A DNA stretch of 64,000 nucleotides. Source: Cetobacterium somerae. GTDB lineage: Bacteria; Fusobacteriota; Fusobacteriia; Fusobacteriales; Fusobacteriaceae. Position numbers and translations under genes: made by a program. The notes under the pieces are model-generated. The model saw nothing but the letters and a program-made list of their open reading frames with translations. It was not told the DNA's origin and did no database searches. This document shows, one piece after another, positions 36,954 to 64,000 of this stretch (positions are counted from its first letter, which is position 1; each line of letters opens with the position of its first letter). The stretch is taken from assembly GCF_022430525.1 (NCBI RefSeq), contig NZ_CP092519.1, positions 310,001 to 374,000 of the forward strand. Reading direction: 5' to 3'.

Positions 36954-36965
36954 TTCCTTTAAACT

Positions 36966-37761: not shown

Positions 37762-37779
37762 TTAAAGGAGGTGTTATTC

Positions 37780-40437: not shown

Positions 40438-40957
40438 TATATTGGCAAGTGAGTTGGTTCATATACCAACTACCTTGCCTCTTTTACCAGAGGATTATGA
40501 AAACCAGCCAAATCTTTTGCCAGCGATTCCTCTTATTCCAGCTTTACCTAGTGAAGAGTCTACAATAGATGGAACTGGAGAAGAGGTAAAATGGAAGTTA
40601 GAAGATTCATATACAATACATTTAGATACAAAAGTTAAAGCAGTTGTACCTTTAGAAATTATAACAGATGTTGATATAAAGGCACTTATTATAGATGATG
40701 AGCAAGTTACAATACCATTTGAACTAGAGATGAATAAAGAACCTGATAAGCAAAATTTCTATGTTTTAAATTATAGTGAAACTGAGATAGACATAGATGG
40801 AGATGGTACTTTAGACACGTTTATATATGCACCAAAATATATTAACAAAAAGCTAGTTACTGATAACTATCTATTTATAGATGGTAAAAATATATCTCGT
40901 GAGGGTGTACATAAGAAAAAAGTTTATATAACTGTTGAATTAAATGAGAGGAGATAG
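40394..40957 (+). CDS. Exported protein of unknown function in the pilus operon
   Basis: The start is the ATG at 40394 behind GGAGGAA; it lies inside the end of the usher gene, giving a 44-base overlap in another frame. The product has 187 residues. The N-terminus KKLLVLILVLLSCNILA is a signal sequence and contains LLSC, a possible lipobox. A proline-rich stretch follows (LPLLPEDY, LLPAIPLIPALP), then a beta-rich part with a DIDGDGTLD loop of the EF-hand/dockerin calcium type. I do not recognise the family. Position between usher and adhesin suggests a minor subunit or assembly factor; this is inference. Confidence 0.6.
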   Translation: MKKLLVLILVLLSCNILASELVHIPTTLPLLPEDYENQPNLLPAIPLIPALPSEESTIDGTGEEVKWKLEDSYTIHLDTKVKAVVPLEIITDVDIKALIIDDEQVTIPFELEMNKEPDKQNFYVLNYSETEIDIDGDGTLDTFIYAPKYINKKLVTDNYLFIDGKNISREGVHKKKVYITVELNERR

Positions 40958-40959
40958 TC

Positions 40960-41505
40960 ATGAGAAAAAATATAGTTTTGATAGTCTTTATGACTATCTT
41001 TTCAATGAGTTTTAGTGAGATAAAAGTAAAAATAGTTGAGCCACTTAGATTTCGAGATATAAATCACACAGAGGTTGGACCTAACCAAGTTGTAGCAGTA
41101 TCTCATGTGGAAATCTATACAACTGATAAAGAAAAAGATTTAGGAAAGAGAATAACTTTTAAATTTCCGAATTTTGTTAATATGACGAATAGAAAAAAGT
41201 GGGTAAAAGTTGAAAGAGTTGGAATGGATCGAAAACAAAATGAGATAATACTTGAAAATGAGAGGGAGTTAGTTAAGTTTTATGCTATTTTAGATAGACG
41301 TGAACTTGATAAAGGTGAAAGTATTGAGGTTATAGAGGGAGAGTATGTTGGGCAATTACCAATAGTTATGGGAGTGTACTCATTGGTAAATGCAAATACA
41401 AAACCAGTAGAACCAATACCAAATCCTGAAGGGGAAAATAGACCACAGATATTACCTATATTTCCAGATGAAATACCAAATGAAAACAAAGGGGGAGAGC
41501 TATGA
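40960..41505 (+). CDS. Exported protein of unknown function in the pilus operon
   Basis: 181 residues with a signal peptide (RKNIVLIVFMTIFSMSFS). The mature part begins EIKVKIVEPLRFRDINHTEVGPNQVVAVSHVEIYT, a beta-rich stretch, and ends in a Pro/Asn/Glu-rich tail (VEPIPNPEGENRPQ). It could be a small beta-sandwich minor subunit, which is a guess. It begins two bases after the previous stop behind GAGAGGAG, and its last codons overlap the adhesin start by four bases (ATGA), so all three are translationally coupled. Confidence 0.6.
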   Translation: MRKNIVLIVFMTIFSMSFSEIKVKIVEPLRFRDINHTEVGPNQVVAVSHVEIYTTDKEKDLGKRITFKFPNFVNMTNRKKWVKVERVGMDRKQNEIILENERELVKFYAILDRRELDKGESIEVIEGEYVGQLPIVMGVYSLVNANTKPVEPIPNPEGENRPQILPIFPDEIPNENKGGEL

Positions 41506-47500: not shown

Positions 47501-47891
47501 TCAATATAAGTTTAATGTAAAATGTCCTGAGTTCTTTATAGCATCATCTGGAGTTTTAGATTTTGGAAAGTTATATAAATTTGGAAGCCCCCAAGATAAA
47601 ACAGTTACAACAAATATAGATCTACATTATAATACGAATGTAATTGCTGAATATTCTTTGGATATTTCTCAAGGAAAGTTAAATATAGGAGCTGAAATTT
47701 TTGAAAATTATCTATACTTAGATGATAATAAAACTTTATTAGTTAAAGATTTATTTTTAGGAGAAGAATTAGGAAAAGAAACTACAAAAAGAATACTTCC
47801 TTTAACGGGGACAATCCATGGTCCAAGTATTCTAAAAGCATCAGAGGGAAAATATGAAAAAACTATACAAATTTTAATTCATTTAAAATAG
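41502..47891 (+). CDS. Very large putative tip adhesin / terminal pilus subunit
   Basis: 2129 residues with a signal peptide (about 10-30). Three copies of a module of the type ATVTYLNGYHREW, ATITYLKGYDRLM and ATLNYKEGYDHYF (near residues 194, 682 and 819) show internal duplication. The middle is Asn/Ile/Lys-rich and beta-rich without recognisable enzymatic motifs. The last 110 residues resemble a pilin domain: SSGVLDFGKLYKFG, TTNIDLHYNTNVIAEYSLDIS and a C-terminal GKYEKTIQILIHL strand. It would therefore be held by a chaperone and incorporated by the usher at the tip. CFA/CS1 tip adhesins are about 360 residues, so this one would be about six times larger. It ends the riboswitch-led operon and is followed by a terminator. 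Function is inferred from layout. Confidence 0.6.
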   Translation: MSKKLKSFHKLFFIIFFSFLFSSIVESGNTPDLPDRIAPELEKIEALPRRTKPAELNIEVTKIKSEPLEDVYIDRKNKNIYVDFSKKREQALKGVKDTEDLEKKYNLIVSESVQGDSEVNGRSKIKNKSNSQVMSYEVVEYQGKKVLKIPYENEPEKFYISVQENGSGKLIKVYGVDIEKARNVEKQVIERKEATVTYLNGYHREWITLNSNGSINGNGVELTKENFTSGNITGFNYGCTSIKHNHNILVGIENNTPVQIPESLGANYSDRYISIGEMQIFMRISCNGDYIQFYISKLPTNKKTYKLKILYTNTTGQIKEHTLNLTEGYLEQLMTITNSLSDIIIQDVENITQDIYTFGNVSLEQTSQTVLYDQAFPVIGLGPELEINRDGWRAETYNPNEKRTISIIDSFKDGNNNILNANLYFTDINPNGGTLLERSTQVGKKEITAMGSHKLNTKEKIGGNLVAEINLDELKTILSNFRSVNSTELTLSSSKPVGEQLTFAGGQYTYSYTWGKYLYYYLANQPKVFKKSVKYPNIKIVKPQITENSQLEINKTLNTNNYIVFNANGINPEVGVVCPIPGTRSLKSLHFNGTYTLNNGNKIDIDATGNSVINTINIFNGLNTLNLEIKYEGRYPKIKILNKPMAGIYKLNIKHYEPSGLERLNYNLDIVIKENFTKERLATITYLKGYDRLMLDKQGFEKINFDTWGNPNVNTSTNEYIKVDIDGEFISGLTGGSTVKIKNKNGELIKEVSGIEKEIDLGEVKLFFSNQGFFSLQMKTVENQKIFEYIIEHYNNNELELKDKLNIKSIQENVIDREATLNYKEGYDHYFVKKVDIDSQGQITPGIPVELIRDNFPSGFITGLNTSPANDYEIKVKIIRLNLDGTDYIPREEKVGGIEESLIMNDFDLTVGKNGMSVIVKNLNNSNSYKYRIEQYIEVGGIRVLKNKDILNIRSKNINKEFEVTWNMKDIIIIPDPNGDPNKTKIEYPDNWVKITQLVDDKKKFPIIGINQVLGEMQNIWSLETQTPLNPINHKPFASLAITSSNGSNIKVPINIRETPFQKAEKFLVYDRGDMTNRNTAVGAYTPLNSLNISPLNNEVQVDFEMIFENIPTSQMEAILKYAKEKFEQGQTKVEIPYLDSKNFHKILAIRGLQESTESNQIKYRVNNSNILTYGIIDFPKIYVIKDENMIESNTATLNFKNPVPKSNRDISGTFDIKNGTIEPNNLPEYNHPSSLIVEGLTSSWHGVANIPEYHKIKIYSGTDIGEGITPEAEFMTTENGEIKGVHTIKTKNNKYVFMKGKNTSLAVGVLEWNFMEVLEEVITLVHYNNVGRIIAKDTYKMNIEEFLPKKYLDVTNSTLINKIDVNKTLKVTVDARQDFIELGSLKLENYQKDITKTVEDTKGIKIEALSKEITLSTTSDNVFLKGNLKYDNGNKDISNPNESANLRFVLSQESIDNIENLIGKTFSLMTPLELIKISGGKKNEVLLNNLIITLSNAQSGNLSSMTYISTVTNLKVKDIDSVIATNKTKFDLDGQMTLRQINSGQGNSVPAIAIGNYTVWKFGVDGIAKRDRSNSRTNRTELKVQYEIVGSNPVKKIEVFPELTKSKTKATQDNLNYNRPIKLYIEKNSDDKILTAVSYAEYRDTMSERITTGLTLNIPIEQLKVIKNELKNIKGDIIEIKPIGENAKIAYIHGRDIGGSGVSTNGNTLSLPTDTNITSRYIEELLPSIFVDKEKLNKNLEINLLPTYPLKDEQEKIIFKSTEPPFYSAGKVIINPTNDNRVIEGLNYQHKIKLTLPGGEIKEYTTSLDGSITIKEIIEKNAKSITLNIDYKSGNEVHVWVTNRNGIQYYDLVLQHIDPSGDIRRTTNLRINSGLEGSTSIKQGEVDLTISSRYNPIDGQLNSEPILITKDGIKYQTEVLDLKLLNGDYPVELKVGQKAYIRSTEILENNYTTITLGKGTKIKAKREANGDLKIKPIYWNYNVEDEFVLEYKTEDTLTNQYKFNVKCPEFFIASSGVLDFGKLYKFGSPQDKTVTTNIDLHYNTNVIAEYSLDISQGKLNIGAEIFENYLYLDDNKTLLVKDLFLGEELGKETTKRILPLTGTIHGPSILKASEGKYEKTIQILIHLK

Positions 47892-47957: not shown

Positions 47958-48043
47958 TTATAAAACTTTTTTTAATAAAAAGGAACGAAAAGAAAACGGT
48001 TGAAGAAACATTTAAATAAAAAAATTAAAGAGGGGTGAAGTTA

Positions 48044-51000
48044 ATGAGAGATAAAAGATACTTAAAAAAGATATTATTTTTATCAGCTTTTCTTATTGTA
48101 GTACGGAGTGTTTACACAGAAGAAAAGGTGGATAACCAAATTATTTTAAAAGAAATTTCCACAAATACTGATGTTCAAGTTGATTTAGATAAACCATACG
48201 AAGAACAAAATTTAATCACACCAGGTAAAATAATTTTAAAAAATAACGGGGGATATATTTATTCCATAGTCGATCCAATTCCAAGAGAACCCAAGCTTTC
48301 AATAAAAGCAAATAAAAAACAAAATATAGACTCTGAGAGAGTCGAGTTTTTTATGTATACAAATTATCAAGAGATTATAAAAAAATGGGAGATATTGGTT
48401 TATGATGAAGAAGATATTCATAAACTTGATCCAATAACAAAATTAGAAGGAACAGAAATTATTTTAAATAAACCCATAGTTTTTGAATATTCTAAAGAGA
48501 AAATAAAAGAGGGAGATAAGTATTTTTATACTTTAAAAGTTTATGATAAAGATGGTCGTTTTGATCAAACAGATATTTATCCATTAGAGTTTGTATCTCC
48601 TATTAATTCAAATAAAAGTGTAGATATAGCAAATAGTATTTATGGAGACGATGGAGTAGTTACAAGAAATATTCAACTTAAAGGCTCTAAAGTAAGAGTT
48701 TATGGAAAAGACTTGCAAGGAGTTCAGAAGTTATCTATAAATAGTCAGCCGGTAAATTTAGATTATAAGGGAGATTTTGCATATGAATATTATACTGACA
48801 TGATAGGAGATTTAAATTTGCCTGTCTTAATGACAGATATAGAGGGAAATGAATATAACTATGGAATGGATATATATCTTCCATCAAGTTATAGTTTTGC
48901 AGTAGGAATAGCTGATTTATTTGTAGGTAAAAATTATGTCTCTGGTAGTGATGCAATTCTTCAAGATAACTATAAATATGATGAAAACGTATTTTCTTCT
49001 GGTAGATTAGCTTTTTATTATAAGAAAGTATGGGAAGATTATAGATTAACAGCTCAAGCGGACACTTGGGAACAAGAGACTAAATATTTATTTAAAGGAT
49101 TCTCTAAAAGAAGACCAAGAGATTTATTCGAAAAATTAGAAAGAGATGATATTGAATTTAATTTAGGAGACGAGTCAACGTATTATAAAGATACTGATAC
49201 TGCAGGTAAGTTTTATGTGAAATTAGAAAAACAAAAGTCTAGTATTTTATGGGGAAGCTTTAATACTGGATTTACAGGTAATTATTATGCAGACTATGAT
49301 AGAAGTTTGTATGGTCTTCAAGGTTTATATAACAGTAATCAATCCACCAAATTTGGAGATACAAGGACTCAAGCAAATATTTTTGTAAGTGAACCAGAGA
49401 CACTTTTTACAAGAGATGAATTTAGAGGAACAGGAGGAAGTGTTTATTTTTTAAGTTTTCAAGATATAGTTACGGGTAGTGCTAAAGTGAAGGTTCAAGT
49501 AACTGATGGAAGGACAGGTAGAATTTTAAGAGAGATAGTTTTACAAGATGGAAGAGATTATGATGTAAATGAACTTCAAGGTAGAGTTATTTTAAAGAAT
49601 CCTTTACCATCGATAATTGCTACAACAGAAGGAGGAGTAATAAAGGATGAACCTTATTACGGAGATAATGTAAATTTAGTTGTAGATTATGAATTTTATT
49701 CTGGAGATACAGACTTTGCAAAAACAACTTACGGAGTTAGAGGGAAATCGTGGATAACAGATAATGTTGCAATTGGAGGAACATTAGTATCAGAATCTAG
49801 GGGAGATGAGTTACAAGACTATGAATTACAAGGTGTAGATGTAACTTTAAGAAAAACAGATAATACATTTATGAGATTTGAATATGCTCATTCGAAAGGA
49901 ACTCAAGCTTTAGTGAATAATTTTTCTTTTAATGGTGGTTATGATTCGTTTTTAGATAGAGATAAATATGAAGAGATTATAAGTAATCCTATGAAATATT
50001 TTAACAATATATCAGGAGATGCATACTCTGTATCAGGAGAAATAGCTTTTAAAGATTTTAGTAGAAAATTTGATGATAGAGATAGTGGAACTTTTTGGTA
50101 TAACAGAAAAGATAAAGGATTTTCAACAGCGGGCTTCTCAAATAGTAGCGAACACGATGATTATGGATTTACAAGTAAGTTTCAATTGACAGATAAATGG
50201 GATATTGGATTTGGAGCAAATAAGTTTAAAGAAAACGATTCAGATTTGTATACAGGATACCCAATATCACTAGAAGAAGATAGAATAAATACAACTATAG
50301 GATATCAATACACAGAAAAATTAAAGTTATCCGCTGAAATTGAATATTTAAAAAATAAAGAAAATGGGGTAGAAGACTTAGATAATCTTAAGGAAGAAGC
50401 AGTATTAGCAGGAGTTAGAGCGGATTATGAGTTTCAGCCTAACAGAACAATATATGGAATAGTTCAAACTGCAATCTGGGATGAAAATTATGGAGCAAAT
50501 AATATTTATACTTTAGGGACAGATTTAAGAGTAACAGATAAATTTAAATTAAATGCAGAAGGTAGTACAGGAAACAAAGGTAATGGTGTTGAAATATTAG
50601 GAACATATGACTTTACTCCAGAGCATAGTCTTTATATGGGATATGCATTAGATGATAATGATGACTTTGGATCAAATTATGGCCAAGAACATACATTCAC
50701 AATTGGACAGAAATTCTTGTATGATGAAAAGACATCTATGTATCATGAAAATCAATTTTTAAAAGACAATGTTGGGAAAGGTGTTCTACAATCTTATGGA
50801 GTAGATTATACATATTCTGAAGATATGACAATTGGAGCATTAATTCAAGATGGTGATTTAGAAACTTATGATGGAAATTTATCAAGAACGTCTGTAAGTC
50901 TTTATAGTAGATATTATAAGAGAGATTTTATGATAAAAAATAAACTTGAATTTGGAAAAGATAGAGGTGCAGGAATGTCAGCTGATAGATGGGCTACGAT

Positions 51001-51598
51001 AAATAGAGGAAAGTTAATATTAAGTGATGAATATACTTTATTTGGAGAATTTAACTATTTATATAGAGATGCAAAAATAGAAAAAGATGACAGATCAATT
51101 GAAACAGGATTGGGATTAGGATATAGACCTATTTGGAATGATAGATTAAATCTTATAGGAAAGTATGAATATGTACAAAATATTGGGGTTAATAATCAAT
51201 TCAATGCAACAAATGATACTAAAGCTCATATCTTATCTTTAGAAGGAATATATGAATTAACTCAAAGGCTTGATATTGGTGGGAAATATGCATTCCGTAC
51301 AGAAGAACTTCGTGCAGGTAGAGGAGAGGGTGATTGGTTTAATTCGAAACTGGATTTATATGCAGTTAGATTAAATTATGAGGTTATTAAAAGTTGGTAT
51401 GCTTTTGGAGAATATCATCTATTAAGAGATATAGAGGATAATTCATATGAACATGGTGCAATTTTAGGAGTTTATAAAGAAGTTCAACAGAATTTGAAAG
51501 TTGGAGTAGGATATAACTTTACTAAATTCGATGATGATTTAAGTGACTTAGACTATAATGCTAAAGGTTGGTTTATTAACATTATAGGTAAATTCTAA
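48044..51598 (+). CDS. Large outer-membrane beta-barrel protein linked to the giant repeat protein
   Basis: The start is the ATG at 48044, behind AGAGGGG; an in-frame GTG at 48035 overlaps that site. The product has 1184 residues with a signal sequence. Residues 25-290 are beta-sandwich-like. Residues 440-560 contain FRGTGGSVYFLSFQDIVTGSAKVKVQVTDGRTGRI and GRDYDVNELQGRVIL, a pattern I associate with outer-membrane partners of DUF11/SdrD-type repeat proteins (from memory, not verified). The rest alternates hydrophobic and polar residues as in a barrel of many strands, and the last residue is Phe (IIGKF), as required for BAM insertion. The giant repeat gene begins 14 bases after its stop, so the pair is co-expressed. 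A role in export or anchoring of that protein is inference. Confidence 0.65.
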   Translation: MRDKRYLKKILFLSAFLIVVRSVYTEEKVDNQIILKEISTNTDVQVDLDKPYEEQNLITPGKIILKNNGGYIYSIVDPIPREPKLSIKANKKQNIDSERVEFFMYTNYQEIIKKWEILVYDEEDIHKLDPITKLEGTEIILNKPIVFEYSKEKIKEGDKYFYTLKVYDKDGRFDQTDIYPLEFVSPINSNKSVDIANSIYGDDGVVTRNIQLKGSKVRVYGKDLQGVQKLSINSQPVNLDYKGDFAYEYYTDMIGDLNLPVLMTDIEGNEYNYGMDIYLPSSYSFAVGIADLFVGKNYVSGSDAILQDNYKYDENVFSSGRLAFYYKKVWEDYRLTAQADTWEQETKYLFKGFSKRRPRDLFEKLERDDIEFNLGDESTYYKDTDTAGKFYVKLEKQKSSILWGSFNTGFTGNYYADYDRSLYGLQGLYNSNQSTKFGDTRTQANIFVSEPETLFTRDEFRGTGGSVYFLSFQDIVTGSAKVKVQVTDGRTGRILREIVLQDGRDYDVNELQGRVILKNPLPSIIATTEGGVIKDEPYYGDNVNLVVDYEFYSGDTDFAKTTYGVRGKSWITDNVAIGGTLVSESRGDELQDYELQGVDVTLRKTDNTFMRFEYAHSKGTQALVNNFSFNGGYDSFLDRDKYEEIISNPMKYFNNISGDAYSVSGEIAFKDFSRKFDDRDSGTFWYNRKDKGFSTAGFSNSSEHDDYGFTSKFQLTDKWDIGFGANKFKENDSDLYTGYPISLEEDRINTTIGYQYTEKLKLSAEIEYLKNKENGVEDLDNLKEEAVLAGVRADYEFQPNRTIYGIVQTAIWDENYGANNIYTLGTDLRVTDKFKLNAEGSTGNKGNGVEILGTYDFTPEHSLYMGYALDDNDDFGSNYGQEHTFTIGQKFLYDEKTSMYHENQFLKDNVGKGVLQSYGVDYTYSEDMTIGALIQDGDLETYDGNLSRTSVSLYSRYYKRDFMIKNKLEFGKDRGAGMSADRWATINRGKLILSDEYTLFGEFNYLYRDAKIEKDDRSIETGLGLGYRPIWNDRLNLIGKYEYVQNIGVNNQFNATNDTKAHILSLEGIYELTQRLDIGGKYAFRTEELRAGRGEGDWFNSKLDLYAVRLNYEVIKSWYAFGEYHLLRDIEDNSYEHGAILGVYKEVQQNLKVGVGYNFTKFDDDLSDLDYNAKGWFINIIGKF

Positions 51599-51612: not shown

Positions 51613-54600
51613 ATGAAGTTAAAATATAAAAATTGTATAAAAAGCTTCATATTGTTTACTATATTTAATATATTATCGTTATTTACCTTTGCAATACCTG
51701 AAGGAATGAAGCCAAATGGCTCTGAAGAACCAATTCCACCTGTAATGAAAAAAACTAGAGCTATAACAAGTAGTTTTGATGTTAATGAAGGAGATGGATT
51801 TATAATTCAGGATATAGGATCAGGAAATATAATAGTAAACAAAAAGAACTTAGTAAACGGTAATAATAGTATAACACCAAAGACTTTAAATGTTGGTGGA
51901 AATACAAATAATGCATTTGGTTACAATTCTAAAGATAATTATATATATGGAATTCAAATGGTAACAAATTCAGGACACAACTTAATAAAAATAGGTAAAG
52001 ATAGTGGAACAGTAGGATTTTCTTTAGGGAAAATAACTGGAATATCATTAAATGAATCTATATTTATAGGAGATTTTGATAAAGATGGAAATATGTATGT
52101 AGCTGGAAATAATAATGTTTATAAGATAACAATAGCATCAAATGGAACAGCAAATGCGGCGAATATAGGGAGTAGAGAAAGTAGTACTTTTGCAGATTGG
52201 GGTTATACTGAAATCAATGGAAAAGAAAGGTTTTATTATATTTTAAATAATGGTACTTTAAAATATTATGAAAAAAGTGGAGGAGGATTGACAGGACCTA
52301 CTCAAGTAACAACAGGATTAAGTACAGATAGAGGAACAGTAGTTGCAGTATTTATGGCAGGAACAAATATGTTTTATAATCCATCAGGAACAAATACTAT
52401 TTATAAAGTGGATTTAACAGCGATTACACCAACTTCTTTATCATTTACATCTTTGGAAAATACAACAACTAGTGGAGATGGAGCTAGAAATTATTCTAAA
52501 TTAATTCCAAACTTGGCAGTAGGTAAAGAAATTACAAATGGAGTGATAGACACAAATGGAGATAAAATTTTTTCTCAAGGTGATGAGATTAAATATAAAT
52601 TAGTTATAAAAAACTCAGGAAATTATCCTTTAGGTGCAGATGATATATCTAAATATATTATTTCAGACAAAGTAGATTTAAATAAGGTAGAATCAGTGGC
52701 AACAAATGTTGTAGCGAAAAAATTTCCTACATTAATTGGAGGTATAGGAACAGTAGTTAATGTAGTACCAACAACATTGACATATGATTCTACAGGAAAA
52801 TTTGAATTAGCTTCAGAATTAGGTAAACTTCCAAGATTAGAAATAGGTGAGAGATTAGAAATAGAATATACTTTAAAAATAAAAATATATGACTTTAGTG
52901 GAGATACAGATAGGATAAATAATACTGTTACGGGAGCAATTCCAAATAAACAAGTAACAAGTGATAGTCAAGCAAGTGTAGTAATATTAAAACCATTAGT
53001 AATAGCAACAAAGATATCAGATAAAACAGGTCAAGTGGTTCAACCTGGAGATGAGATAGAATATACATTAACATTGACAAATACAGGAAAAGTACCATCG
53101 AATAATTATCCTGTAAAAGATAGTTTATTAACTAATGAGGGATTATCAAAACCAACATTAACAATAACGGGAGGAACCTTAACAGGGGATATATTCGAAA
53201 ATAGTGGAGGAACAATAACAGTACCTGCGCAAGTAGGAACATCGCCAGGTGTAGTAACTATAACATACAAAGTAATAGTTCCTACAGATTATGCAAAACC
53301 AACAATAGTTAACTCATTAAATAGTGGTCAAGAGATAGTAATCAATGTTGAAAAACCAGTAGTTTTATCAACAAAGACATCAGATAAAACAGGTCAAGTA
53401 GTTCAAGCAGGAGAAGTAATAGGTTATACATTAAAACTAACAAATACAACGAAAGTAGATGCAAAGAACTATGTAGTAAAAGATACGCTGTTAAGTAATC
53501 CATTGTTAACAAAACCAACAGATGTATTAGTAGAAGGAGGAACGTTAACAGGAGATATATTTGATGGTGCAGGAGGAAGTGTAACAGTACCAGCAGGAAA
53601 AACAGTGACGATAACATACACAGTAACAGTACCAAGCGCGTATCCAAATGAGACAATAGTAAACTCAGTAAATAATGGAGAAGAAGTAGTAATAGAGTAT
53701 GATGATCCAAATGTATCAGTAGTGAAGACATCAGATAAAACAGGTCAAGTAGTTCAAGCAGGAGAAGTAATAGGTTATACATTAAAACTAACAAATACAA
53801 CGAAAGTAGATGCAAAGAACTATGTAGTAAAAGATACGCTGTTAAGTAATCCATTGTTAACAAAACCAACAGATGTATTAGTAGAAGGAGGAACGTTAAC
53901 AGGAGATATATTTGATGGTGCAGGAGGAAGTGTAACAGTACCAGCAGGAAAAACAGTGACGATAACATACACAGTAACAGTACCAAGCGCGTATCCAAAT
54001 GAGACAATAGTAAACTCAGTAAATAATGGAGAAGAAGTAGTGATAGAGTATGATGATCCAAATGTATCAGTAGTGAAGACATCAGATAAAACAGGTCAAG
54101 TAGTTCAAGCAGGAGAAGTAATAGGTTATACATTAAAACTAACAAATACAACGAAAGTAGATGCAAAGAACTATGTAGTAAAAGATACGCTGTTAAGTAA
54201 TCCATTGTTAACAAAACCAACAGATGTATTAGTAGAAGGAGGAACGTTAACAGGAGATATATTTGATGGTGCAGGAGGAAGTGTAACAGTACCAGCAGGA
54301 AAAACAGTGACGATAACATACACAGTAACAGTACCAAGCGCGTATCCAAATGAGACAATAGTAAACTCAGTAAATAATGGAGAAGAAGTAGTAATAGAGT
54401 ATGATGATCCAAATGTATCAGTAGTGAAGACATCAGACAAAACAGGTCAAGTAGTTCAAGCAGGAGAAGTAATAGGTTATACATTAAAACTAACAAATAC
54501 AACGAAAGTAGATGCAAAGAACTATGTAGTAAAAGATACGCTGTTAAGTAATCCATTGTTAACAAAACCAACAGATGTATTAGTAGAAGGAGGAACGTTA

Positions 54601-57600
54601 ACAGGAGATATATTTGATGGTGCAGGAGGAAGTGTAACAGTACCAGCAGGAAAAACAGTGACGATAACATACACAGTAACAGTACCAAGCGCGTATCCAA
54701 ATGAGACAATAGTAAACTCAGTAAATAATGGAGAAGAAGTAGTAATAGAGTATGATGATCCAAATGTATCAGTAGTGAAGACATCAGACAAAACAGGTCA
54801 AGTAGTTCAAGCAGGAGAAGTAATAGGTTATACATTAAAACTAACAAATACAACGAAAGTAGATGCAAAGAACTATGTAGTAAAAGATACGCTGTTAAGT
54901 AATCCATTGTTAACAAAACCAACAGATGTATTAGTAGAAGGAGGAACGTTAACAGGAGATATATTTGATGGTGCAGGAGGAAGTGTAACAGTACCAGCAG
55001 GAAAAACAGTGACGATAACATACACAGTAACAGTACCAAGCGCGTATCCAAATGAGACAATAGTAAACTCAGTAAATAATGGAGAAGAAGTAGTGATAGA
55101 GTATGATGATCCAAATGTATCAGTAGTGAAGACATCAGACAAAACAGGTCAAGTAGTTCAAGCAGGAGAAGTAATAGGTTATACATTAAAACTAACAAAT
55201 ACAACGAAAGTAGATGCAAAGAACTATGTAGTAAAAGATACGCTGTTAAGTAATCCATTGTTAACAAAACCAACAGATGTATTAGTAGAAGGAGGAACGT
55301 TAACAGGAGATATATTTGATGGTGCAGGAGGAAGTGTAACAGTACCAGCAGGAAAAACAGTGACGATAACATACACAGTAACAGTACCAAGCGCGTATCC
55401 AAATGAGACAATAGTAAACTCAGTAAATAATGGAGAAGAAGTAGTAATAGAGTATGATGATCCAAATGTATCAGTAGTGAAGACATCAGATAAAACAGGT
55501 CAAGTAGTTCAAGCAGGAGAAGTAATAGGTTATACATTAAAACTAACAAATACAACGAAAGTAGATGCAAAGAACTATGTAGTAAAAGATACGCTGTTAA
55601 GTAATCCATTGTTAACAAAACCAACAGATGTATTAGTAGAAGGAGGAACGTTAACAGGAGATATATTTGATGGTGCAGGAGGAAGTGTAACAGTACCAGC
55701 AGGAAAAACAGTGACGATAACATACACAGTAACAGTACCAAGCGCGTATCCAAATGAGACAATAGTAAACTCAGTAAATAATGGAGAAGAAGTAGTAATA
55801 GAGTATGATGATCCAAATGTATCAGTAGTGAAGACATCAGATAAAACAGGTCAAGTAGTTCAAGCAGGAGAAGTAATAGGTTATACATTAAAACTAACAA
55901 ATACAACGAAAGTAGATGCAAAGAACTATGTAGTAAAAGATACGCTGTTAAGTAATCCATTGTTAACAAAACCAACAGATGTATTAGTAGAAGGAGGAAC
56001 GTTAACAGGAGATATATTTGATGGTGCAGGAGGAAGTGTAACAGTACCAGCAGGAAAAACAGTGACGATAACATACACAGTAACAGTACCAAGCGCGTAT
56101 CCAAATGAGACAATAGTAAACTCAGTAAATAATGGAGAAGAAGTAGTGATAGAGTATGATGATCCAAATGTATCAGTAGTGAAGACATCAGACAAAACAG
56201 GTCAAGTAGTTCAAGCAGGAGAAGTAATAGGTTATACATTAAAACTAACAAATACAACGAAAGTAGATGCAAAGAACTATGTAGTAAAAGATACGCTGTT
56301 AAGTAATCCATTGTTAACAAAACCAACAGATGTATTAGTAGAAGGAGGAACGTTAACAGGAGATATATTTGATGGTGCAGGAGGAAGTGTAACAGTACCA
56401 GCAGGAAAAACAGTGACGATAACATACACAGTAACAGTACCAAGCGCGTATCCAAATGAGACAATAGTAAACTCAGTAAATAATGGAGAAGAAGTAGTGA
56501 TAGAGTATGATGATCCAAATGTATCAGTAGTGAAGACATCAGACAAAACAGGTCAAGTAGTTCAAGCAGGAGAAGTAATAGGTTATACATTAAAACTAAC
56601 AAATACAACGAAAGTAGATGCAAAGAACTATGTAGTAAAAGATACGCTGTTAAGTAATCCATTGTTAACAAAACCAACAGATGTATTAGTAGAAGGAGGA
56701 ACGTTAACAGGAGATATATTTGATGGTGCAGGAGGAAGTGTAACAGTACCAGCAGGAAAAACAGTGACGATAACATACACAGTAACAGTACCAAGCGCGT
56801 ATCCAAATGAGACAATAGTAAACTCAGTAAATAATGGAGAAGAAGTAGTAATAGAGTATGATGATCCAAATGTATCAGTAGTGAAGACATCAGATAAAAC
56901 AGGTCAAGTAGTTCAAGCAGGAGAAGTAATAGGTTATACATTAAAACTAACAAATACAACGAAAGTAGATGCAAAGAACTATGTAGTAAAAGATACGCTG
57001 TTAAGTAATCCATTGTTAACAAAACCAACAGATGTATTAGTAGAAGGAGGAACGTTAACAGGAGATATATTTGATGGTGCAGGAGGAAGTGTAACAGTAC
57101 CAGCAGGAAAAACAGTGACGATAACATACACAGTAACAGTACCAAGCGCGTATCCAAATGAGACAATAGTAAACTCAGTAAATAATGGAGAAGAAGTAGT
57201 AATAGAGTATGATGATCCAAATGTATCAGTAGTGAAGACATCAGACAAAACAGGTCAAGTAGTTCAAGCAGGAGAAGTAATAGGTTATACATTAAAACTA
57301 ACAAATACAACGAAAGTAGATGCAAAGAACTATGTAGTAAAAGATACGCTGTTAAGTAATCCATTGTTAACAAAACCAACAGATGTATTAGTAGAAGGAG
57401 GAACGTTAACAGGAGATATATTTGATGGTGCAGGAGGAAGTGTAACAGTACCAGCAGGAAAAACAGTGACGATAACATACACAGTAACAGTACCAAGCGC
57501 GTATCCAAATGAGACAATAGTAAACTCAGTAAATAATGGAGAAGAAGTAGTAATAGAGTATGATGATCCAAATGTATCAGTAGTGAAGACATCAGATAAA

Positions 57601-60600
57601 ACAGGTCAAGTAGTTCAAGCAGGAGAAGTAATAGGTTATACATTAAAACTAACAAATACAACGAAAGTAGATGCAAAGAACTATGTAGTAAAAGATACGC
57701 TGTTAAGTAATCCATTGTTAACAAAACCAACAGATGTATTAGTAGAAGGAGGAACGTTAACAGGAGATATATTTGATGGTGCAGGAGGAAGTGTAACAGT
57801 ACCAGCAGGAAAAACAGTGACGATAACATACACAGTAACAGTACCAAGCGCGTATCCAAATGAGACAATAGTAAACTCAGTAAATAATGGAGAAGAAGTA
57901 GTAATAGAGTATGATGATCCAAATGTATCAGTAGTGAAGACATCAGATAAAACAGGTCAAGTAGTTCAAGCAGGAGAAGTAATAGGTTATACATTAAAAC
58001 TAACAAATACAACGAAAGTAGATGCAAAGAACTATGTAGTAAAAGATACGCTGTTAAGTAATCCATTGTTAACAAAACCAACAGATGTATTAGTAGAAGG
58101 AGGAACGTTAACAGGAGATATATTTGATGGTGCAGGAGGAAGTGTAACAGTACCAGCAGGAAAAACAGTGACGATAACATACACAGTAACAGTACCAAGC
58201 GCGTATCCAAATGAGACAATAGTAAACTCAGTAAATAATGGAGAAGAAGTAGTAATAGAGTATGATGATCCAAATGTATCAGTAGTGAAGACATCAGATA
58301 AAACAGGTCAAGTAGTTCAAGCAGGAGAAGTAATAGGTTATACATTAAAACTAACAAATACAACGAAAGTAGATGCAAAGAACTATGTAGTAAAAGATAC
58401 GCTGTTAAGTAATCCATTGTTAACAAAACCAACAGATGTATTAGTAGAAGGAGGAACGTTAACAGGAGATATATTTGATGGTGCAGGAGGAAGTGTAACA
58501 GTACCAGCAGGAAAAACAGTGACGATAACATACACAGTAACAGTACCAAGCGCGTATCCAAATGAGACAATAGTAAACTCAGTAAATAATGGAGAAGAAG
58601 TAGTAATAGAGTATGATGATCCAAATGTATCAGTAGTGAAGACATCAGACAAAACAGGTCAAGTAGTTCAAGCAGGAGAAGTAATAGGTTATACATTAAA
58701 ACTAACAAATACAACGAAAGTAGATGCAAAGAACTATGTAGTAAAAGATACGCTGTTAAGTAATCCATTGTTAACAAAACCAACAGATGTATTAGTAGAA
58801 GGAGGAACGTTAACAGGAGATATATTTGATGGTGCAGGAGGAAGTGTAACAGTACCAGCAGGAAAAACAGTGACGATAACATACACAGTAACAGTACCAA
58901 GCGCGTATCCAAATGAGACAATAGTAAACTCAGTAAATAATGGAGAAGAAGTAGTAATAGAGTATGATGATCCAAATGTATCAGTAGTGAAGACATCAGA
59001 TAAAACAGGTCAAGTAGTTCAAGCAGGAGAAGTAATAGGTTATACATTAAAACTAACAAATACAACGAAAGTAGATGCAAAGAACTATGTAGTAAAAGAT
59101 ACGCTGTTAAGTAATCCATTGTTAACAAAACCAACAGATGTATTAGTAGAAGGAGGAACGTTAACAGGAGATATATTTGATGGTGCAGGAGGAAGTGTAA
59201 CAGTACCAGCAGGAAAAACAGTGACGATAACATACACAGTAACAGTACCAAGCGCGTATCCAAATGAGACAATAGTAAACTCAGTAAATAATGGAGAAGA
59301 AGTAGTAATAGAGTATGATGATCCAAATGTATCAGTAGTGAAGACATCAGATAAAACAGGTCAAGTAGTTCAAGCAGGAGAAGTAATAGGTTATACATTA
59401 AAACTAACAAATACAACGAAAGTAGATGCAAAGAACTATGTAGTAAAAGATACGCTGTTAAGTAATCCATTGTTAACAAAACCAACAGATGTATTAGTAG
59501 AAGGAGGAACGTTAACAGGAGATATATTTGATGGTACAGGAGGAAGTGTAACAGTACCAGCAGGAAAAACAGTGACGATAACATACACAGTAACAGTACC
59601 AAGCGCGTATCCAAATGAGACAATAGTAAACTCAGTAAATAATGGAGAAGAAGTAGTAATAGAGTATGATGATCCAAATGTATCAGTAGTGAAGACATCA
59701 GACAAAACAGGTCAAGTAGTTCAAGCAGGAGAAGTAATAGGTTATACATTAAAACTAACAAATACAACGAAAGTAGATGCAAAGAACTATGTAGTAAAAG
59801 ATACGCTGTTAAGTAATCCATTGTTAACAAAACCAACAGATGTATTAGTAGAAGGAGGAACGTTAACAGGAGATATATTTGATGGTGCAGGAGGAAGTGT
59901 AACAGTACCAGCAGGAAAAACAGTGACGATAACATACACAGTAACAGTACCAAGCGCGTATCCAAATGAGACAATAGTAAACTCAGTAAATAATGGAGAA
60001 GAAGTAGTAATAGAGTATGATGATCCAAATGTATCAGTAGTGAAGACATCAGATAAAACAGGTCAAGTAGTTCAAGCAGGAGAAGTAATAGGTTATACAT
60101 TAAAACTAACAAATACAACGAAAGTAGATGCAAAGAACTATGTAGTAAAAGATACGCTGTTAAGTAATCCATTGTTAACAAAACCAACAGATGTATTAGT
60201 AGAAGGAGGAACGTTAACAGGAGATATATTTGATGGTGCAGGAGGAAGTGTAACAGTACCAGCAGGAAAAACAGTGACGATAACATACACAGTAACAGTA
60301 CCAAGCGCGTATCCAAATGAGACAATAGTAAACTCAGTAAATAATGGAGAAGAAGTAGTAATAGAGTATGATGATCCAAATGTATCAGTAGTGAAGACAT
60401 CAGATAAAACAGGTCAAGTAGTTCAAGCAGGAGAAGTAATAGGTTATACATTAAAACTAACAAATACAACGAAAGTAGATGCAAAGAACTATGTAGTAAA
60501 AGATACGCTGTTAAGTAATCCATTGTTAACAAAACCAACAGATGTATTAGTAGAAGGAGGAACGTTAACAGGAGATATATTTGATGGTGCAGGAGGAAGT

Positions 60601-63540
60601 GTAACAGTACCAGCAGGAAAAACAGTGACGATAACATACACAGTAACAGTACCAAGCGCGTATCCAAATGAGACAATAGTAAACTCAGTAAATAATGGAG
60701 AAGAAGTAGTGATAGAGTATGATGATCCAAATGTATCAGTAGTGAAGACATCAGATAAAACAGGTCAAGTAGTTCAAGCAGGAGAAGTAATAGGTTATAC
60801 ATTAAAACTAACAAATACAACGAAAGTAGATGCAAAGAACTATGTAGTAAAAGATACGCTGTTAAGTAATCCATTGTTAACAAAACCAACAGATGTATTA
60901 GTAGAAGGAGGAACGTTAACAGGAGATATATTTGATGGTGCAGGAGGAAGTGTAACAGTACCAGCAGGAAAAACAGTGACGATAACATACACAGTAACAG
61001 TACCAAGCGCGTATCCAAATGAGACAATAGTAAACTCAGTAAATAATGGAGAAGAAGTAGTGATAGAGTATGATGATCCAAATGTATCAGTAGTGAAGAC
61101 ATCAGATAAAACAGGTCAAGTAGTTCAAGCAGGAGAAGTAATAGGTTATACATTAAAACTAACAAATACAACGAAAGTAGATGCAAAGAACTATGTAGTA
61201 AAAGATACGCTGTTAAGTAATCCATTGTTAACAAAACCAACAGATGTATTAGTAGAAGGAGGAACGTTAACAGGAGATATATTTGATGGTACAGGAGGAA
61301 GTGTAACAGTACCAGCAGGAAAAACAGTGACGATAACATACACAGTAACAGTACCAAGTGCGTATCCAAATGAGACAATAGTAAACTCAGTAAATAATGG
61401 AGAAGAAGTAGTAATAGAGTATGATGATCCAAGTGTATCAGTAGTGAAGACATCAGATAAAACAGGTCAAGTAGTTCAAGCAGGAGAAGTAATAGGTTAT
61501 ACATTAAAACTAACAAATGCAACGAAAGTAGATGCAACGAACTATGTAGTAAAAGATACGCTGTTAAGTAATCCGTTGTTAACAAAACCAACAGATGTAT
61601 TAGTAGAAGGAGGAACGTTAACAGGAGATATATTTGATGGTACAGGAGGAAGTGTAACAGTACCAGCAGAAAAAACAGTGACGATAACATACACAGTAAC
61701 AGTACCAAGCGCGTATCCAAATGAGACAATAGTAAACTCAGCAAACGAGGGAGAGAATATAATAATAGAAGTAGATAAACCAAATGTTAGATTAAGACAT
61801 GATGTATTTGCATATGAGGAGAAATTTGATGATTCAGACGAACTTATAAATCAAGACGAAGGGATAGTGACAGATTTTGAAAATATCGAAAATAAGAATA
61901 GCAACCCACCAGTTATACTTCCAGGTAATAAAGCAATCCATTTTATTAGTTTAATTAATCCTTCTAAGGTAGATTTGAAAGGTAAGTCAGATATAAATCA
62001 TCAATTAGATGGAAAACAATTAAAAGATGATGAAGGAAATCCCATTTTTAATGAACACAAGTTCCAAGGAATTGTATTGACAAATCTAGATACAAATGAA
62101 AAGATTTTTTACAGTGAAAAAGAATTAAGTGGAGGACAGACAAAAGCTAAGAATGCAAGAATGTTACCAGAAGCTAATGAACTAAAAATAACACCAAAAA
62201 CTAGTAGTTTTACATTTGAAGAAAAAATTCCTTTGAGAACAGCAATTTCTTTTGTGTTCTCTTCAACTGTTAATCCAGAAGGAACATTCAATAAAAATAC
62301 GAGAATAAGTTCATATGCATTTTTACCATTTGATTCAGAACAAAATACTAGTGAGGGAGAACTAAGAAAAGCTGTAATTGTAATAGGTCGAAGAGAAGCT
62401 GATTTAGTATTAAGTAAAAGTGTAGAAATAGAAGAAGCTTCAATAGGTAAATTTGTTCCCTATACAATAGAAATCAAAAATATGGGTAAAGATTCTGTAG
62501 ATAATATTATTATATCAGATAAACTTCCACCAGGATTTACATATGTAGAAGGTTCTGCTGTACAAGAACTAAAAGATGGATACGCACAGAAAAAACTTCA
62601 AGTAATAGGAACAAAAGAGATAGAGATTGGACCTATTTCTCAGATAAAATCTGGAGAAACGATAGTAATAAAATATTTACTAAAGGTTGGAGTTGGTGTA
62701 AAACCAGGAACATATAAAAATATAGCTGTTGTAAAAAATGAAAACAAAGAAAATATTTCGAATACAGATTCTGTTGATATTGATATAGTAGCAGATCCAA
62801 TATTTGAGCATACAACAGTTATAGGAAAAGTTTTCCATGACAGAGACGAAGATGGAATTCAAGATTATGCTAATGCAAGAAAAGCTCATATAACAGTTAA
62901 TATTCCAAAAGAGTATTATGTAAAAAATACAACAACAGTTTCTAAAGAGGGAAAAATATACTCTTTTGCTGATAATTATGAAACAATAATAATAAGAAAT
63001 ATTAAGGGAAGAGTGTCGGAATTAGAACCAGCAACAAATAATATGGTTGTTATAAGAAAAGAGTTAATAAAACCTGTAATGGCAAATGTGAGAGTTCAAA
63101 CATTTGGAGGAACTGATATAACTCAACAAGGAAATGGTGAAGTTATAACAAATCATACTGGAGATAAAATAAAAGGAATGACCAATCAAGATATAGTAAT
63201 AACTCAAAGAGTAATAAAGAATAAAGATAATAAAATAATACTTGAAGTCTTTGTATTAAATAACGGAATACAAGAGGAGGGATTACCAGGAGTAAGATTA
63301 GCAACTCCAGAAGGAATAGTTGTAGAAACAGATAGATTTGGTAGATATCATGTTCCTCCTGTACCAGAGACTTTAGGAAAGAACTATATCATAAAGGTAG
63401 ATCCAACTACTTTACCAAAAGGAGCGGAATTTACAACTGAAAACCCAAGAGTTCGTCATTTAGGAAAAGTTATGATGAAGTTTAACTTTGGAGTGAAGTT
63501 ACCATCTTTAAAAAATCCAGAGAAAAAGGATAAAAAATAG
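51613..63540 (+). CDS. Giant surface protein with 24 near-identical DUF11-like repeats
   Basis: 3975 residues, signal sequence near 10-30. Residues 50-300 look like a propeller-type domain (GDFDKDGNMYVAGNNNVYKI). Residues 310-465 form a first DUF11-like domain (GDEIKYKLVIKNSGNYPL), and 469-589 a diverged repeat. Residues 590-3397 are 24 tandem copies of 117 residues, each with KTSDKTGQVVQAGEVIGYTL at its start and ETIVNSVNNGEEVVIEYDD at its end. Then come a spacer, another DUF11-like domain (VPYTIEIKNMGKDSVDNIIISDKL), an SdrD-B-like stretch (VIGKVFHDRDEDGIQD) and a final domain with DRFGRYHVPPVP and KVDPTTLPKGAEF. It should extend far from the cell as an adhesin or stalk. No LPXTG or barrel is present, so the upstream barrel is the likely anchor. 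GAGGGAGG precedes the ATG. Confidence 0.85.
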   Translation: MKLKYKNCIKSFILFTIFNILSLFTFAIPEGMKPNGSEEPIPPVMKKTRAITSSFDVNEGDGFIIQDIGSGNIIVNKKNLVNGNNSITPKTLNVGGNTNNAFGYNSKDNYIYGIQMVTNSGHNLIKIGKDSGTVGFSLGKITGISLNESIFIGDFDKDGNMYVAGNNNVYKITIASNGTANAANIGSRESSTFADWGYTEINGKERFYYILNNGTLKYYEKSGGGLTGPTQVTTGLSTDRGTVVAVFMAGTNMFYNPSGTNTIYKVDLTAITPTSLSFTSLENTTTSGDGARNYSKLIPNLAVGKEITNGVIDTNGDKIFSQGDEIKYKLVIKNSGNYPLGADDISKYIISDKVDLNKVESVATNVVAKKFPTLIGGIGTVVNVVPTTLTYDSTGKFELASELGKLPRLEIGERLEIEYTLKIKIYDFSGDTDRINNTVTGAIPNKQVTSDSQASVVILKPLVIATKISDKTGQVVQPGDEIEYTLTLTNTGKVPSNNYPVKDSLLTNEGLSKPTLTITGGTLTGDIFENSGGTITVPAQVGTSPGVVTITYKVIVPTDYAKPTIVNSLNSGQEIVINVEKPVVLSTKTSDKTGQVVQAGEVIGYTLKLTNTTKVDAKNYVVKDTLLSNPLLTKPTDVLVEGGTLTGDIFDGAGGSVTVPAGKTVTITYTVTVPSAYPNETIVNSVNNGEEVVIEYDDPNVSVVKTSDKTGQVVQAGEVIGYTLKLTNTTKVDAKNYVVKDTLLSNPLLTKPTDVLVEGGTLTGDIFDGAGGSVTVPAGKTVTITYTVTVPSAYPNETIVNSVNNGEEVVIEYDDPNVSVVKTSDKTGQVVQAGEVIGYTLKLTNTTKVDAKNYVVKDTLLSNPLLTKPTDVLVEGGTLTGDIFDGAGGSVTVPAGKTVTITYTVTVPSAYPNETIVNSVNNGEEVVIEYDDPNVSVVKTSDKTGQVVQAGEVIGYTLKLTNTTKVDAKNYVVKDTLLSNPLLTKPTDVLVEGGTLTGDIFDGAGGSVTVPAGKTVTITYTVTVPSAYPNETIVNSVNNGEEVVIEYDDPNVSVVKTSDKTGQVVQAGEVIGYTLKLTNTTKVDAKNYVVKDTLLSNPLLTKPTDVLVEGGTLTGDIFDGAGGSVTVPAGKTVTITYTVTVPSAYPNETIVNSVNNGEEVVIEYDDPNVSVVKTSDKTGQVVQAGEVIGYTLKLTNTTKVDAKNYVVKDTLLSNPLLTKPTDVLVEGGTLTGDIFDGAGGSVTVPAGKTVTITYTVTVPSAYPNETIVNSVNNGEEVVIEYDDPNVSVVKTSDKTGQVVQAGEVIGYTLKLTNTTKVDAKNYVVKDTLLSNPLLTKPTDVLVEGGTLTGDIFDGAGGSVTVPAGKTVTITYTVTVPSAYPNETIVNSVNNGEEVVIEYDDPNVSVVKTSDKTGQVVQAGEVIGYTLKLTNTTKVDAKNYVVKDTLLSNPLLTKPTDVLVEGGTLTGDIFDGAGGSVTVPAGKTVTITYTVTVPSAYPNETIVNSVNNGEEVVIEYDDPNVSVVKTSDKTGQVVQAGEVIGYTLKLTNTTKVDAKNYVVKDTLLSNPLLTKPTDVLVEGGTLTGDIFDGAGGSVTVPAGKTVTITYTVTVPSAYPNETIVNSVNNGEEVVIEYDDPNVSVVKTSDKTGQVVQAGEVIGYTLKLTNTTKVDAKNYVVKDTLLSNPLLTKPTDVLVEGGTLTGDIFDGAGGSVTVPAGKTVTITYTVTVPSAYPNETIVNSVNNGEEVVIEYDDPNVSVVKTSDKTGQVVQAGEVIGYTLKLTNTTKVDAKNYVVKDTLLSNPLLTKPTDVLVEGGTLTGDIFDGAGGSVTVPAGKTVTITYTVTVPSAYPNETIVNSVNNGEEVVIEYDDPNVSVVKTSDKTGQVVQAGEVIGYTLKLTNTTKVDAKNYVVKDTLLSNPLLTKPTDVLVEGGTLTGDIFDGAGGSVTVPAGKTVTITYTVTVPSAYPNETIVNSVNNGEEVVIEYDDPNVSVVKTSDKTGQVVQAGEVIGYTLKLTNTTKVDAKNYVVKDTLLSNPLLTKPTDVLVEGGTLTGDIFDGAGGSVTVPAGKTVTITYTVTVPSAYPNETIVNSVNNGEEVVIEYDDPNVSVVKTSDKTGQVVQAGEVIGYTLKLTNTTKVDAKNYVVKDTLLSNPLLTKPTDVLVEGGTLTGDIFDGAGGSVTVPAGKTVTITYTVTVPSAYPNETIVNSVNNGEEVVIEYDDPNVSVVKTSDKTGQVVQAGEVIGYTLKLTNTTKVDAKNYVVKDTLLSNPLLTKPTDVLVEGGTLTGDIFDGAGGSVTVPAGKTVTITYTVTVPSAYPNETIVNSVNNGEEVVIEYDDPNVSVVKTSDKTGQVVQAGEVIGYTLKLTNTTKVDAKNYVVKDTLLSNPLLTKPTDVLVEGGTLTGDIFDGAGGSVTVPAGKTVTITYTVTVPSAYPNETIVNSVNNGEEVVIEYDDPNVSVVKTSDKTGQVVQAGEVIGYTLKLTNTTKVDAKNYVVKDTLLSNPLLTKPTDVLVEGGTLTGDIFDGAGGSVTVPAGKTVTITYTVTVPSAYPNETIVNSVNNGEEVVIEYDDPNVSVVKTSDKTGQVVQAGEVIGYTLKLTNTTKVDAKNYVVKDTLLSNPLLTKPTDVLVEGGTLTGDIFDGTGGSVTVPAGKTVTITYTVTVPSAYPNETIVNSVNNGEEVVIEYDDPNVSVVKTSDKTGQVVQAGEVIGYTLKLTNTTKVDAKNYVVKDTLLSNPLLTKPTDVLVEGGTLTGDIFDGAGGSVTVPAGKTVTITYTVTVPSAYPNETIVNSVNNGEEVVIEYDDPNVSVVKTSDKTGQVVQAGEVIGYTLKLTNTTKVDAKNYVVKDTLLSNPLLTKPTDVLVEGGTLTGDIFDGAGGSVTVPAGKTVTITYTVTVPSAYPNETIVNSVNNGEEVVIEYDDPNVSVVKTSDKTGQVVQAGEVIGYTLKLTNTTKVDAKNYVVKDTLLSNPLLTKPTDVLVEGGTLTGDIFDGAGGSVTVPAGKTVTITYTVTVPSAYPNETIVNSVNNGEEVVIEYDDPNVSVVKTSDKTGQVVQAGEVIGYTLKLTNTTKVDAKNYVVKDTLLSNPLLTKPTDVLVEGGTLTGDIFDGAGGSVTVPAGKTVTITYTVTVPSAYPNETIVNSVNNGEEVVIEYDDPNVSVVKTSDKTGQVVQAGEVIGYTLKLTNTTKVDAKNYVVKDTLLSNPLLTKPTDVLVEGGTLTGDIFDGTGGSVTVPAGKTVTITYTVTVPSAYPNETIVNSVNNGEEVVIEYDDPSVSVVKTSDKTGQVVQAGEVIGYTLKLTNATKVDATNYVVKDTLLSNPLLTKPTDVLVEGGTLTGDIFDGTGGSVTVPAEKTVTITYTVTVPSAYPNETIVNSANEGENIIIEVDKPNVRLRHDVFAYEEKFDDSDELINQDEGIVTDFENIENKNSNPPVILPGNKAIHFISLINPSKVDLKGKSDINHQLDGKQLKDDEGNPIFNEHKFQGIVLTNLDTNEKIFYSEKELSGGQTKAKNARMLPEANELKITPKTSSFTFEEKIPLRTAISFVFSSTVNPEGTFNKNTRISSYAFLPFDSEQNTSEGELRKAVIVIGRREADLVLSKSVEIEEASIGKFVPYTIEIKNMGKDSVDNIIISDKLPPGFTYVEGSAVQELKDGYAQKKLQVIGTKEIEIGPISQIKSGETIVIKYLLKVGVGVKPGTYKNIAVVKNENKENISNTDSVDIDIVADPIFEHTTVIGKVFHDRDEDGIQDYANARKAHITVNIPKEYYVKNTTTVSKEGKIYSFADNYETIIIRNIKGRVSELEPATNNMVVIRKELIKPVMANVRVQTFGGTDITQQGNGEVITNHTGDKIKGMTNQDIVITQRVIKNKDNKIILEVFVLNNGIQEEGLPGVRLATPEGIVVETDRFGRYHVPPVPETLGKNYIIKVDPTTLPKGAEFTTENPRVRHLGKVMMKFNFGVKLPSLKNPEKKDKK
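53017..53379 (+). repeat. Diverged first unit of the DUF11-like repeat array
   Basis: 363 bases, four codons longer than the main unit, with the same frame landmarks (SDKTGQVVQPGDEIEYTL, GGTLTGDIF, then TIVNSLNSGQEIVI) but many differences at DNA level. It looks like an ancestral copy left outside the homogenised array. Confidence 0.8.
53380..61803 (+). repeat. 24 tandem 351-bp coding repeats
   Basis: Units start at 53380 and recur every 351 bases to the unit at 61453. The landmark is TCAGATAAAACAGGTCAAGT, with TCAGAC in several units. Interior copies are nearly identical at DNA level and differ at a few sites: GAT/GAC in the landmark, GTA/GTG before ATAGAG, and GGTGCA/GGTACA. The last two units (61102 and 61453) accumulate more changes, as expected at the edge of an array homogenised by recombination. 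The unit length is a multiple of three, so copy-number changes keep the frame. Confidence 0.95.
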
Positions 63541-63699: not shown

Positions 63700-63730
63700 A
63701 AAAAGCCCCTTTTAAATAAGGGGCTTTTTA
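63700..63730. terminator. Bidirectional terminator at the end of the surface region
   Basis: AAAAAGCCCC and GGGGCTTTTT form a perfect 10-bp stem with a 10-base loop. It serves the small ORF on the plus strand and overlaps the stop codon of the chaperone-like gene on the minus strand. Confidence 0.9.
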
Positions 63731-64000
63731 TTTACATAAGCCAAAATATCCATATGAATATTAAATTTTAAATTATTGTATTTAGTAAGATTGATAGGAA
63801 GTGTTTCAATAGAAAGGACTCCACTATAAATATTTTTAATCTCTGTATTAGAAGAGGGTTTTAGAAAAATTTTAACCTCTTTTTTTTCATCAGGATTTAA
63901 TATAAAAACTTTTGGAAAAATTTTATAATTAATTTTTTCTTCATCTATATTAATAGAAACTTTGTATAATTTTTTTTCATTAGAATCATTAATTATTAAA
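63712..64000 (-). CDS. Chaperone-like protein, C-terminal part (gene continues beyond the right edge)
   Basis: An open minus-strand frame enters at 63999 and stops with TAA at 63714-63712, giving 95 visible residues. The pattern INDSNEKKLYKVSINI, then IFPKVFILNPDEKKEVKIFLKP and YSGVLSIETLPI, matches the N-terminal immunoglobulin domain of the chaperones at 35582 and 37033 (NPT...LKYQL, TLKPGRSGKFKVFV, GEYLVTVGVKEI). NIHMDILAYV corresponds to their KMDLAGYIGDL junction, but here the protein ends eight residues later, so the second domain is missing. It may be a one-domain chaperone of another pilus-type operon running leftward into this boundary. The start lies outside the window. Confidence 0.6.
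   Translation of the reverse strand, partial: LIINDSNEKKLYKVSINIDEEKINYKIFPKVFILNPDEKKEVKIFLKPSSNTEIKNIYSGVLSIETLPINLTKYNNLKFNIHMDILAYVNKKPLI

Follow-up and report, generated by a model that had tools for sequence, protein, structure and literature searches.

The Periscope Proteins, which include SasG/Aap, Rib, Sgo_0707 and CdrA (Whelan et al. 2021, PMC8201768; review PMC9704523), are recognized by repeats that are folded domains of more than 50 amino acids sharing more than 80% identity. Their defining feature is a repeat number that differs among the strains of one species (PMC8201768, PMC9704523), and variable repeat numbers are also found in some inverse autotransporters (PMC9704523). A Lys-Asp-Asn isopeptide triad has been described for the DUF11 and DUF7927 domains, including a DUF7927 example with a triad spacing of 36/64 (PMC12617251). 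Fusobacteriota are not mentioned in PMC8201768. Furthermore, no paper linking Cetobacterium with DUF11 was found in the literature searched.

Cetobacterium is a genus common in fish guts. The locus considered here lies in a window of 64,000 nucleotides (the whole stretch of DNA that was analysed) from a genome of this genus. Its gene pair probably encodes a periscope-like fibrillar stalk, stiffened by isopeptide bonds, docked on a barrel and thereby anchored in the outer membrane, whose repeat array would be turned over by recombination.

The stalk gene and its repeat array

The stalk ORF (51613-63540, + strand), identified by ORF reading, encodes 3975 aa. Computed from the sequence, the mature protein has a mass of about 418 kDa and a pI of 4.6, and the only Cys of the protein is located in the signal peptide. 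This Sec-type signal peptide, MKLKYKNCIKSFILFTIFNILSLFTFA (51613-51693, +), was recognized by eye and is followed by a DUF6923 N-terminal domain (51892-52485, +; Pfam PF21959, E=1.3e-12) which, judging from its position in the chain, would be the head of the stalk and its putative tip. Then come a DUF11-type domain (52999-53373, +) sharing 62% amino acid identity with the repeat unit, the array itself (53374-61797, +), made of 24 units of 351 bp that encode Ig-like DUF11/DUF7927 domains with Lys1, Asp37 and Asn97 in each, and a unique C-terminal region (61798-63537, +). The latter, described from Pfam and conserved in orthologues, has matches in 10 other Cetobacterium genomes. Pfam places in it a DUF11 domain (62401-62769, +) and, weakly, an SdrD_B-like stretch (62827-62973, +), and it ends with a putative C-terminal docking module (63274-63513, +), GLPGVRLATPEG..TDRFGRYHVPP...TLPKG...ENPRVRHLGKVMMKFNFGVKLP, that is found paired with or fused to a barrel. 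According to Pfam, the OmpA domain (PF00691) is absent from both the stalk and the barrel proteins, the OmpA matches of the genome being located elsewhere. An OmpA-anchored adhesin was therefore rejected, since the stalk lacks a C-terminal OmpA domain.

Next to the stalk gene and convergent with it, a small remnant-like cassette combines a short, pilin-like ORF with one that is chaperone-like and truncated; these two genes occupy 63712-64000 (-) and continue to positions 374001-374600 of the contig (C1; L051). Further downstream of the locus, the same contig carries an ORF (C1:380783-381670; L051:7784-8671) that we take to be IS3-family transposase-like.

The sequence-only reading had reported 24 near-identical 351-bp repeats inside the 3975-aa ORF, which Tandem Repeats Finder confirms: a single large array is reported, with a period of 351, 24.0 copies, 99% matches, 0% indels and a score of 16579 (53374-61787), far beyond chance. 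In register, the array extends over 53374-61797 with units of 351 bp, or 117 aa, in frame and coding throughout; the limits given previously (53380-61803) are shifted by 6 nt, the choice of frame being arbitrary. Units 1-22 differ from the consensus at 0-2 nt and unit 23 at 3 nt. The mean pairwise difference among units 1-23 is 1.2 nt (0.35%) and adjacent amino acid identity reaches 99-100% across these 23 units. The last unit (61447-61797, +) is near-identical only in a loose sense: it is 27 nt off the consensus, mostly in its last 56 nt (3' end), has 91% amino acid identity and grades into the unique C-terminal region.

Three variant sites recur in the units: sites 12 (T/C) and 318 (A/G), which are silent, and site 196 (G/A), which replaces Ala by Thr. 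Sites 12 and 318 occur in all four possible combinations (9, 6, 4 and 2 units, counted on the common background), which indicates exchange between units, unless mutation was recurrent. As previously proposed, changes in copy number would keep the frame, since the period of 351 is divisible by 3. With DNA so similar from one unit to the next, whole units would be gained or lost in frame through unequal recombination or replication slippage, so that the length of the stalk, and perhaps with it the reach of the protein, could shift quickly, as in Periscope Proteins, and would be expected to vary within the species.

The opposite strand of the array carries an ORF of 2813 aa (53342-61783, -) with a very Leu-rich product. 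This frame stays open in 61% of the synonymous recodings made with the codon usage of the unit itself, a partly circular test, and in 0/3000 of those made with the codon usage of neighbouring genes. The array favours GTA for Val and TCA for Ser, whereas the neighbouring genes favour GTT and AGT. No antisense ORF of comparable extent is found across the array of the sister species, G003. Repetition of a unit without stop codons is what keeps the antisense frame open, and the recoding test, the Leu-rich product and the G003 array led to its rejection as a gene: it is a by-product.

The repeat unit and the probable turnover of the array

The units of the array belong to the DUF11/CLIPPER family by sequence, fold and triad. 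DUF7927 (PF25549) and DUF11 (PF01345) are both detected by Pfam above cut-off, in a two-unit stretch and in the whole protein, and phmmer relates the upstream copy of the domain to the CLIPPER (DUF11) structure 9IFR (E=3e-4). An AlphaFold2 model of three units, obtained from 49 sequences, displays three Ig-like domains (mean pLDDT 89.5). The informative structural ranking is that of VIA-align, which places antigen I/II C-terminal domains at the top (Z up to 13.0) and aligns the model with 9IFR over 109 residues (Z 10.0, rmsd 2.5 A, 23% identity), with a CnaA-like fold. It is not that of Foldseek, whose matches in the PDB are mainly generic Ig-like domains (integrins, axoneme, alpha-2-macroglobulin) with poor TM-scores.

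The Lys1-Asp37-Asn97 triad is complete in every unit (24/24) and in every DUF11-like domain of the stalk protein (27/27), and its spacing (36/60, versus 33/58 in 9IFR) is that of the family. From the residues and the fold, each unit is predicted to hold one intramolecular Lys-Asn isopeptide bond, which would stiffen the domain. An Ig-like domain is about 4 nm long. At this length, the 24 units would span roughly 100 nm, and these identical domains would form a long rod holding the DUF6923 head away from the cell, in a putative adhesive role.

Orthologues were compared using one genome per species, the genome of the window being G000. Downstream synteny is common to G000, G003, G001, G008 and G006. 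In the sister species G003, the syntenic orthologue has a C-terminus that is 91% identical, one unit close to that of the window, unit A (85%), another one at 64%, and a different unit of 138 aa, B, in about nine near-identical copies. In the orthologue of G001, a third unit, C, is present at least twice and is followed by A units; an N gap and contig ends lie inside its array. The orthologue of G006 is a protein of 1780 aa that has six DUF11-like domains with about 27% adjacent identity and no near-identical array. The A units of G000 and G001 differ at 29/351 nt, versus 0.35% within G000, which is a signature of concerted evolution or of recent re-amplification. Since different domains have been multiplied at the same place in sister species, stalk length seems to be fast-evolving. 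The species-specific amplified units, together with the combinations in which sites 12 and 318 occur, support the recombination between copies that had been anticipated from the sequence.

Near-identical or highly similar arrays are also found elsewhere: 18.9 x 411 bp (86%) in G090, 12.8 x 354 bp (83%) in a stalk of S. meliloti, and 10 x 387 bp in a second stalk gene of G003. Both near-identical arrays of G003 contain frame-breaking single-base deletions in A-rich stretches (L043:10502-10600; L096:13764-14536). These could correspond to consensus error, real disruption or phase variation, and look like consensus errors. The S. meliloti relative is represented by two copies only, both from plasmid records, whose alignment is unbroken and shows neither gain nor loss of units.

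The identical array could be a transient of recent amplification without any selected role. Neutral concerted evolution, in which a fibrillar adhesin of the ordinary kind undergoes tandem duplication and gene conversion, could let copy number drift with no periscope meaning. Most homologous stalks across the wider family are indeed diverged (20-46% adjacent domain identity) and devoid of arrays, as is the 1780-aa orthologue of G006. However, arrays arose repeatedly (G000, G001, two G003 genes, G090, S. meliloti) and the complete triad has been retained by every amplified Cetobacterium unit examined, so that this neutral explanation appears unlikely and a periscope-like stalk is preferred.

The figure of 24 copies comes from a single assembly of 2.97 Mb in 7 contigs. 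The three fragmented assemblies that contain an orthologue (G001 C40/C12, G004 C16/C49, G008 C19/C74) are all broken within the stalk gene, so that the earlier warning about assembly collapse at this site was apt and 24 should be taken as the count of one assembly. An assembler could have inflated or collapsed the array, the true units being fewer or more, as these breaks would allow; the frame-breaking deletions of the G003 arrays, by their resemblance to consensus errors, point the same way. Such an artefact is nevertheless improbable for the window, where the variant units are interspersed and not arranged as a single copied block, the ORF runs on through all 24 units, and the units at the edges have diverged, as those of real arrays do. 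Furthermore, the contig is 1.9 Mb long. The array is best regarded as real, and recombination as the probable source of its turnover.

The genome of the window also encodes a fused paralogue of 5264 aa (C1:1081493-1097284; L097:494-16285), with an N-terminal DUF11 stalk and a C-terminal barrel. It has 29 DUF11-like domains in each of G000, G006 and G002, with adjacent identities of 20-38%, and 19/29 of its domains have the triad. In G002, its stalk and barrel are split over adjacent frames. Being diverged and having the same domain number in three species, this paralogue provides a natural control within the same genome. Its comparison with the stalk makes it directly testable whether the rate at which length changes depends on sequence identity between repeats and not on the type of domain.

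The probable barrel-like partner and the putative docking module

The stalk gene is preceded by a gene on the same strand (48035-51598, +), ending 15 bp upstream, that encodes an outer-membrane beta-barrel-like protein of 1187 aa, assigned from a low-confidence model, Foldseek and homology to fused ORFs. This protein has a signal-like N-terminus and a C-terminal end ...GWFINIIGKF. Its model shows long alternating strands (mean pLDDT 58.8, i.e., low confidence) and most of the leading Foldseek matches are large outer-membrane barrels (SprA, MtrB, SlpA, LptD, FimD); given this pLDDT, they are used to recognize a large outer-membrane barrel only, not a family. At the sequence level, its profile has no PDB match at E<=1 and the protein matches no Pfam family at E<=0.001, the best match, DUF4900, being insignificant (E 0.12). 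Residues 72-1187 align with the C-terminus of the fused 5264-aa protein encoded elsewhere in the same genome, and the C-terminal module of the stalk is also found at the stalk/barrel junction of this fused protein.

Among 98 genomes of Fusobacteriota, the barrel is found in 25 and the module in 24, the additional genome with the barrel only (G067) having a partial barrel match. The docking module is conserved in Vibrio and Sinorhizobium, and a plasmid collection contains 20 records with the barrel and 20 with the module, from proteobacterial plasmids, with matching organism lists. In the three annotated records that were read, a stalk gene annotated as DUF11, SdrD or OmpA is located immediately upstream of the barrel gene. 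The stalk ORF likewise adjoins the barrel ORF in V. campbellii, as seen from the ORFs of a record devoid of annotation. These data provide strong genomic evidence that stalk and barrel would act together. The barrel is probably the anchor of the stalk, whose C-terminal module would dock on it, and we would guess that the stalk is perhaps exported through it. The stalk is a putative surface protein, as initially described: the signal-peptide-like start, the adjacent barrel-like protein and the conserved C-terminal module all support this description.

Directly upstream, and in the same orientation, is a chaperone-usher-like cluster (35582-47891, +) whose divergence keeps it below the Pfam cut-offs. 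It encodes two PapD-like chaperones (35582-36307, +, with a weak PapD_N match, E=0.0019; 37033-37761, +), a small pilin-like protein (36375-36953, +), an usher-like protein of 888 aa (37771-40437, +), two small proteins and a protein of 2129 aa with no Pfam match. This proximity and the PapD_N similarity raise the idea that the stalk is a subunit or the tip of this system instead of a monomeric barrel-anchored adhesin, and usher-like clusters are located near the stalk gene in G004 and G006 too. However, the region read around the G003 barrel-stalk pair has regulator-like genes next to the pair and no usher-like gene, and the regions read around the pairs of Proteobacteria likewise lack such a cluster. 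Moreover, the units are Ig-like CLIPPER domains and the C-terminal module is common to the stalk and to barrel-fused proteins, which makes a role as usher-assembled subunit very improbable and favours the barrel as anchor.

That barrel and module go together almost one to one in different phyla suggests a surface-display system of wide distribution, for which the literature searched gave no name. Its members are usually annotated as "DUF11 domain-containing protein" together with "hypothetical protein", "OmpA family protein" or "TonB-dependent receptor". A more ambitious reading, which we hold only tentatively and consider somewhat doubtful as a whole, is that of an undescribed two-partner system of Fusobacteriota and Pseudomonadota, in which the barrel would export and hold giant DUF11 stalks, either split or fused, the focal stalk being freely length-variable and the fused paralogue of fixed length. 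Outside the genus but within the same family, homologous barrels adjoin stalk ORFs of 10,057 aa (G023 C15; L114/L115) and 7,675 aa (G034 C6; L112/L113), both without a near-identical array.

Comparison with described systems

To our knowledge, the antigen I/II proteins are Gram-positive streptococcal adhesins without such an array. Their C-terminal domains (SspB, SpaP) are the closest structural matches of the unit, with about 14-17% sequence identity, and isopeptide bonds were reported in SspB (2WZA).

The inverse autotransporters (intimin/invasin) of type V secretion also display an Ig-like stalk on an outer-membrane barrel, within a single chain. However, they have an N-terminal barrel followed by the Ig stalk, whereas this order is reversed in the fused Cetobacterium form and the focal locus encodes two polypeptides. 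Furthermore, the focal barrel is much larger than theirs and matches no Pfam family. An inverse autotransporter (type Ve) was rejected because of the separate ORFs and of the reversed order of the fused paralogue.

The DUF11/CLIPPER adhesin B9T28_05395 from Acinetobacter silvestris (9IFR; PMC12617251) is, as here, a Gram-negative DUF11 stalk with a Lys-Asp-Asn triad, and some Cetobacterium orthologues bear GEVED domains, like DUF11/CLIPPER fibrillar adhesins (PMC12617251). However, the protein from A. silvestris ends in an OmpA-like domain, whereas the Cetobacterium stalk ends in a docking module beside a separate barrel. Moreover, the Cetobacterium units are 99-100% identical, unlike those of the 9IFR protein.

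With the Periscope Proteins, the stalk shares tandem domains of predicted Ig-like fold, a putative N-terminal head, a predicted attachment to the surface and frame-preserving repeats, and its units of 117 aa, 99-100% identical (91% for the last one), exceed the length and identity that characterize their repeats. As the differences between orthologues are known between species, the stalk is a candidate Periscope Protein, not a filed member. What is new here is, in Fusobacteriota, a DUF11 stalk that resembles the Periscope Proteins and is paired with an outer-membrane barrel, its probable anchor. If this is true, the periscope idea would reach this phylum with a different anchor: a paired or fused large outer-membrane barrel, where the Periscope Proteins have a sortase motif or an inverse autotransporter.
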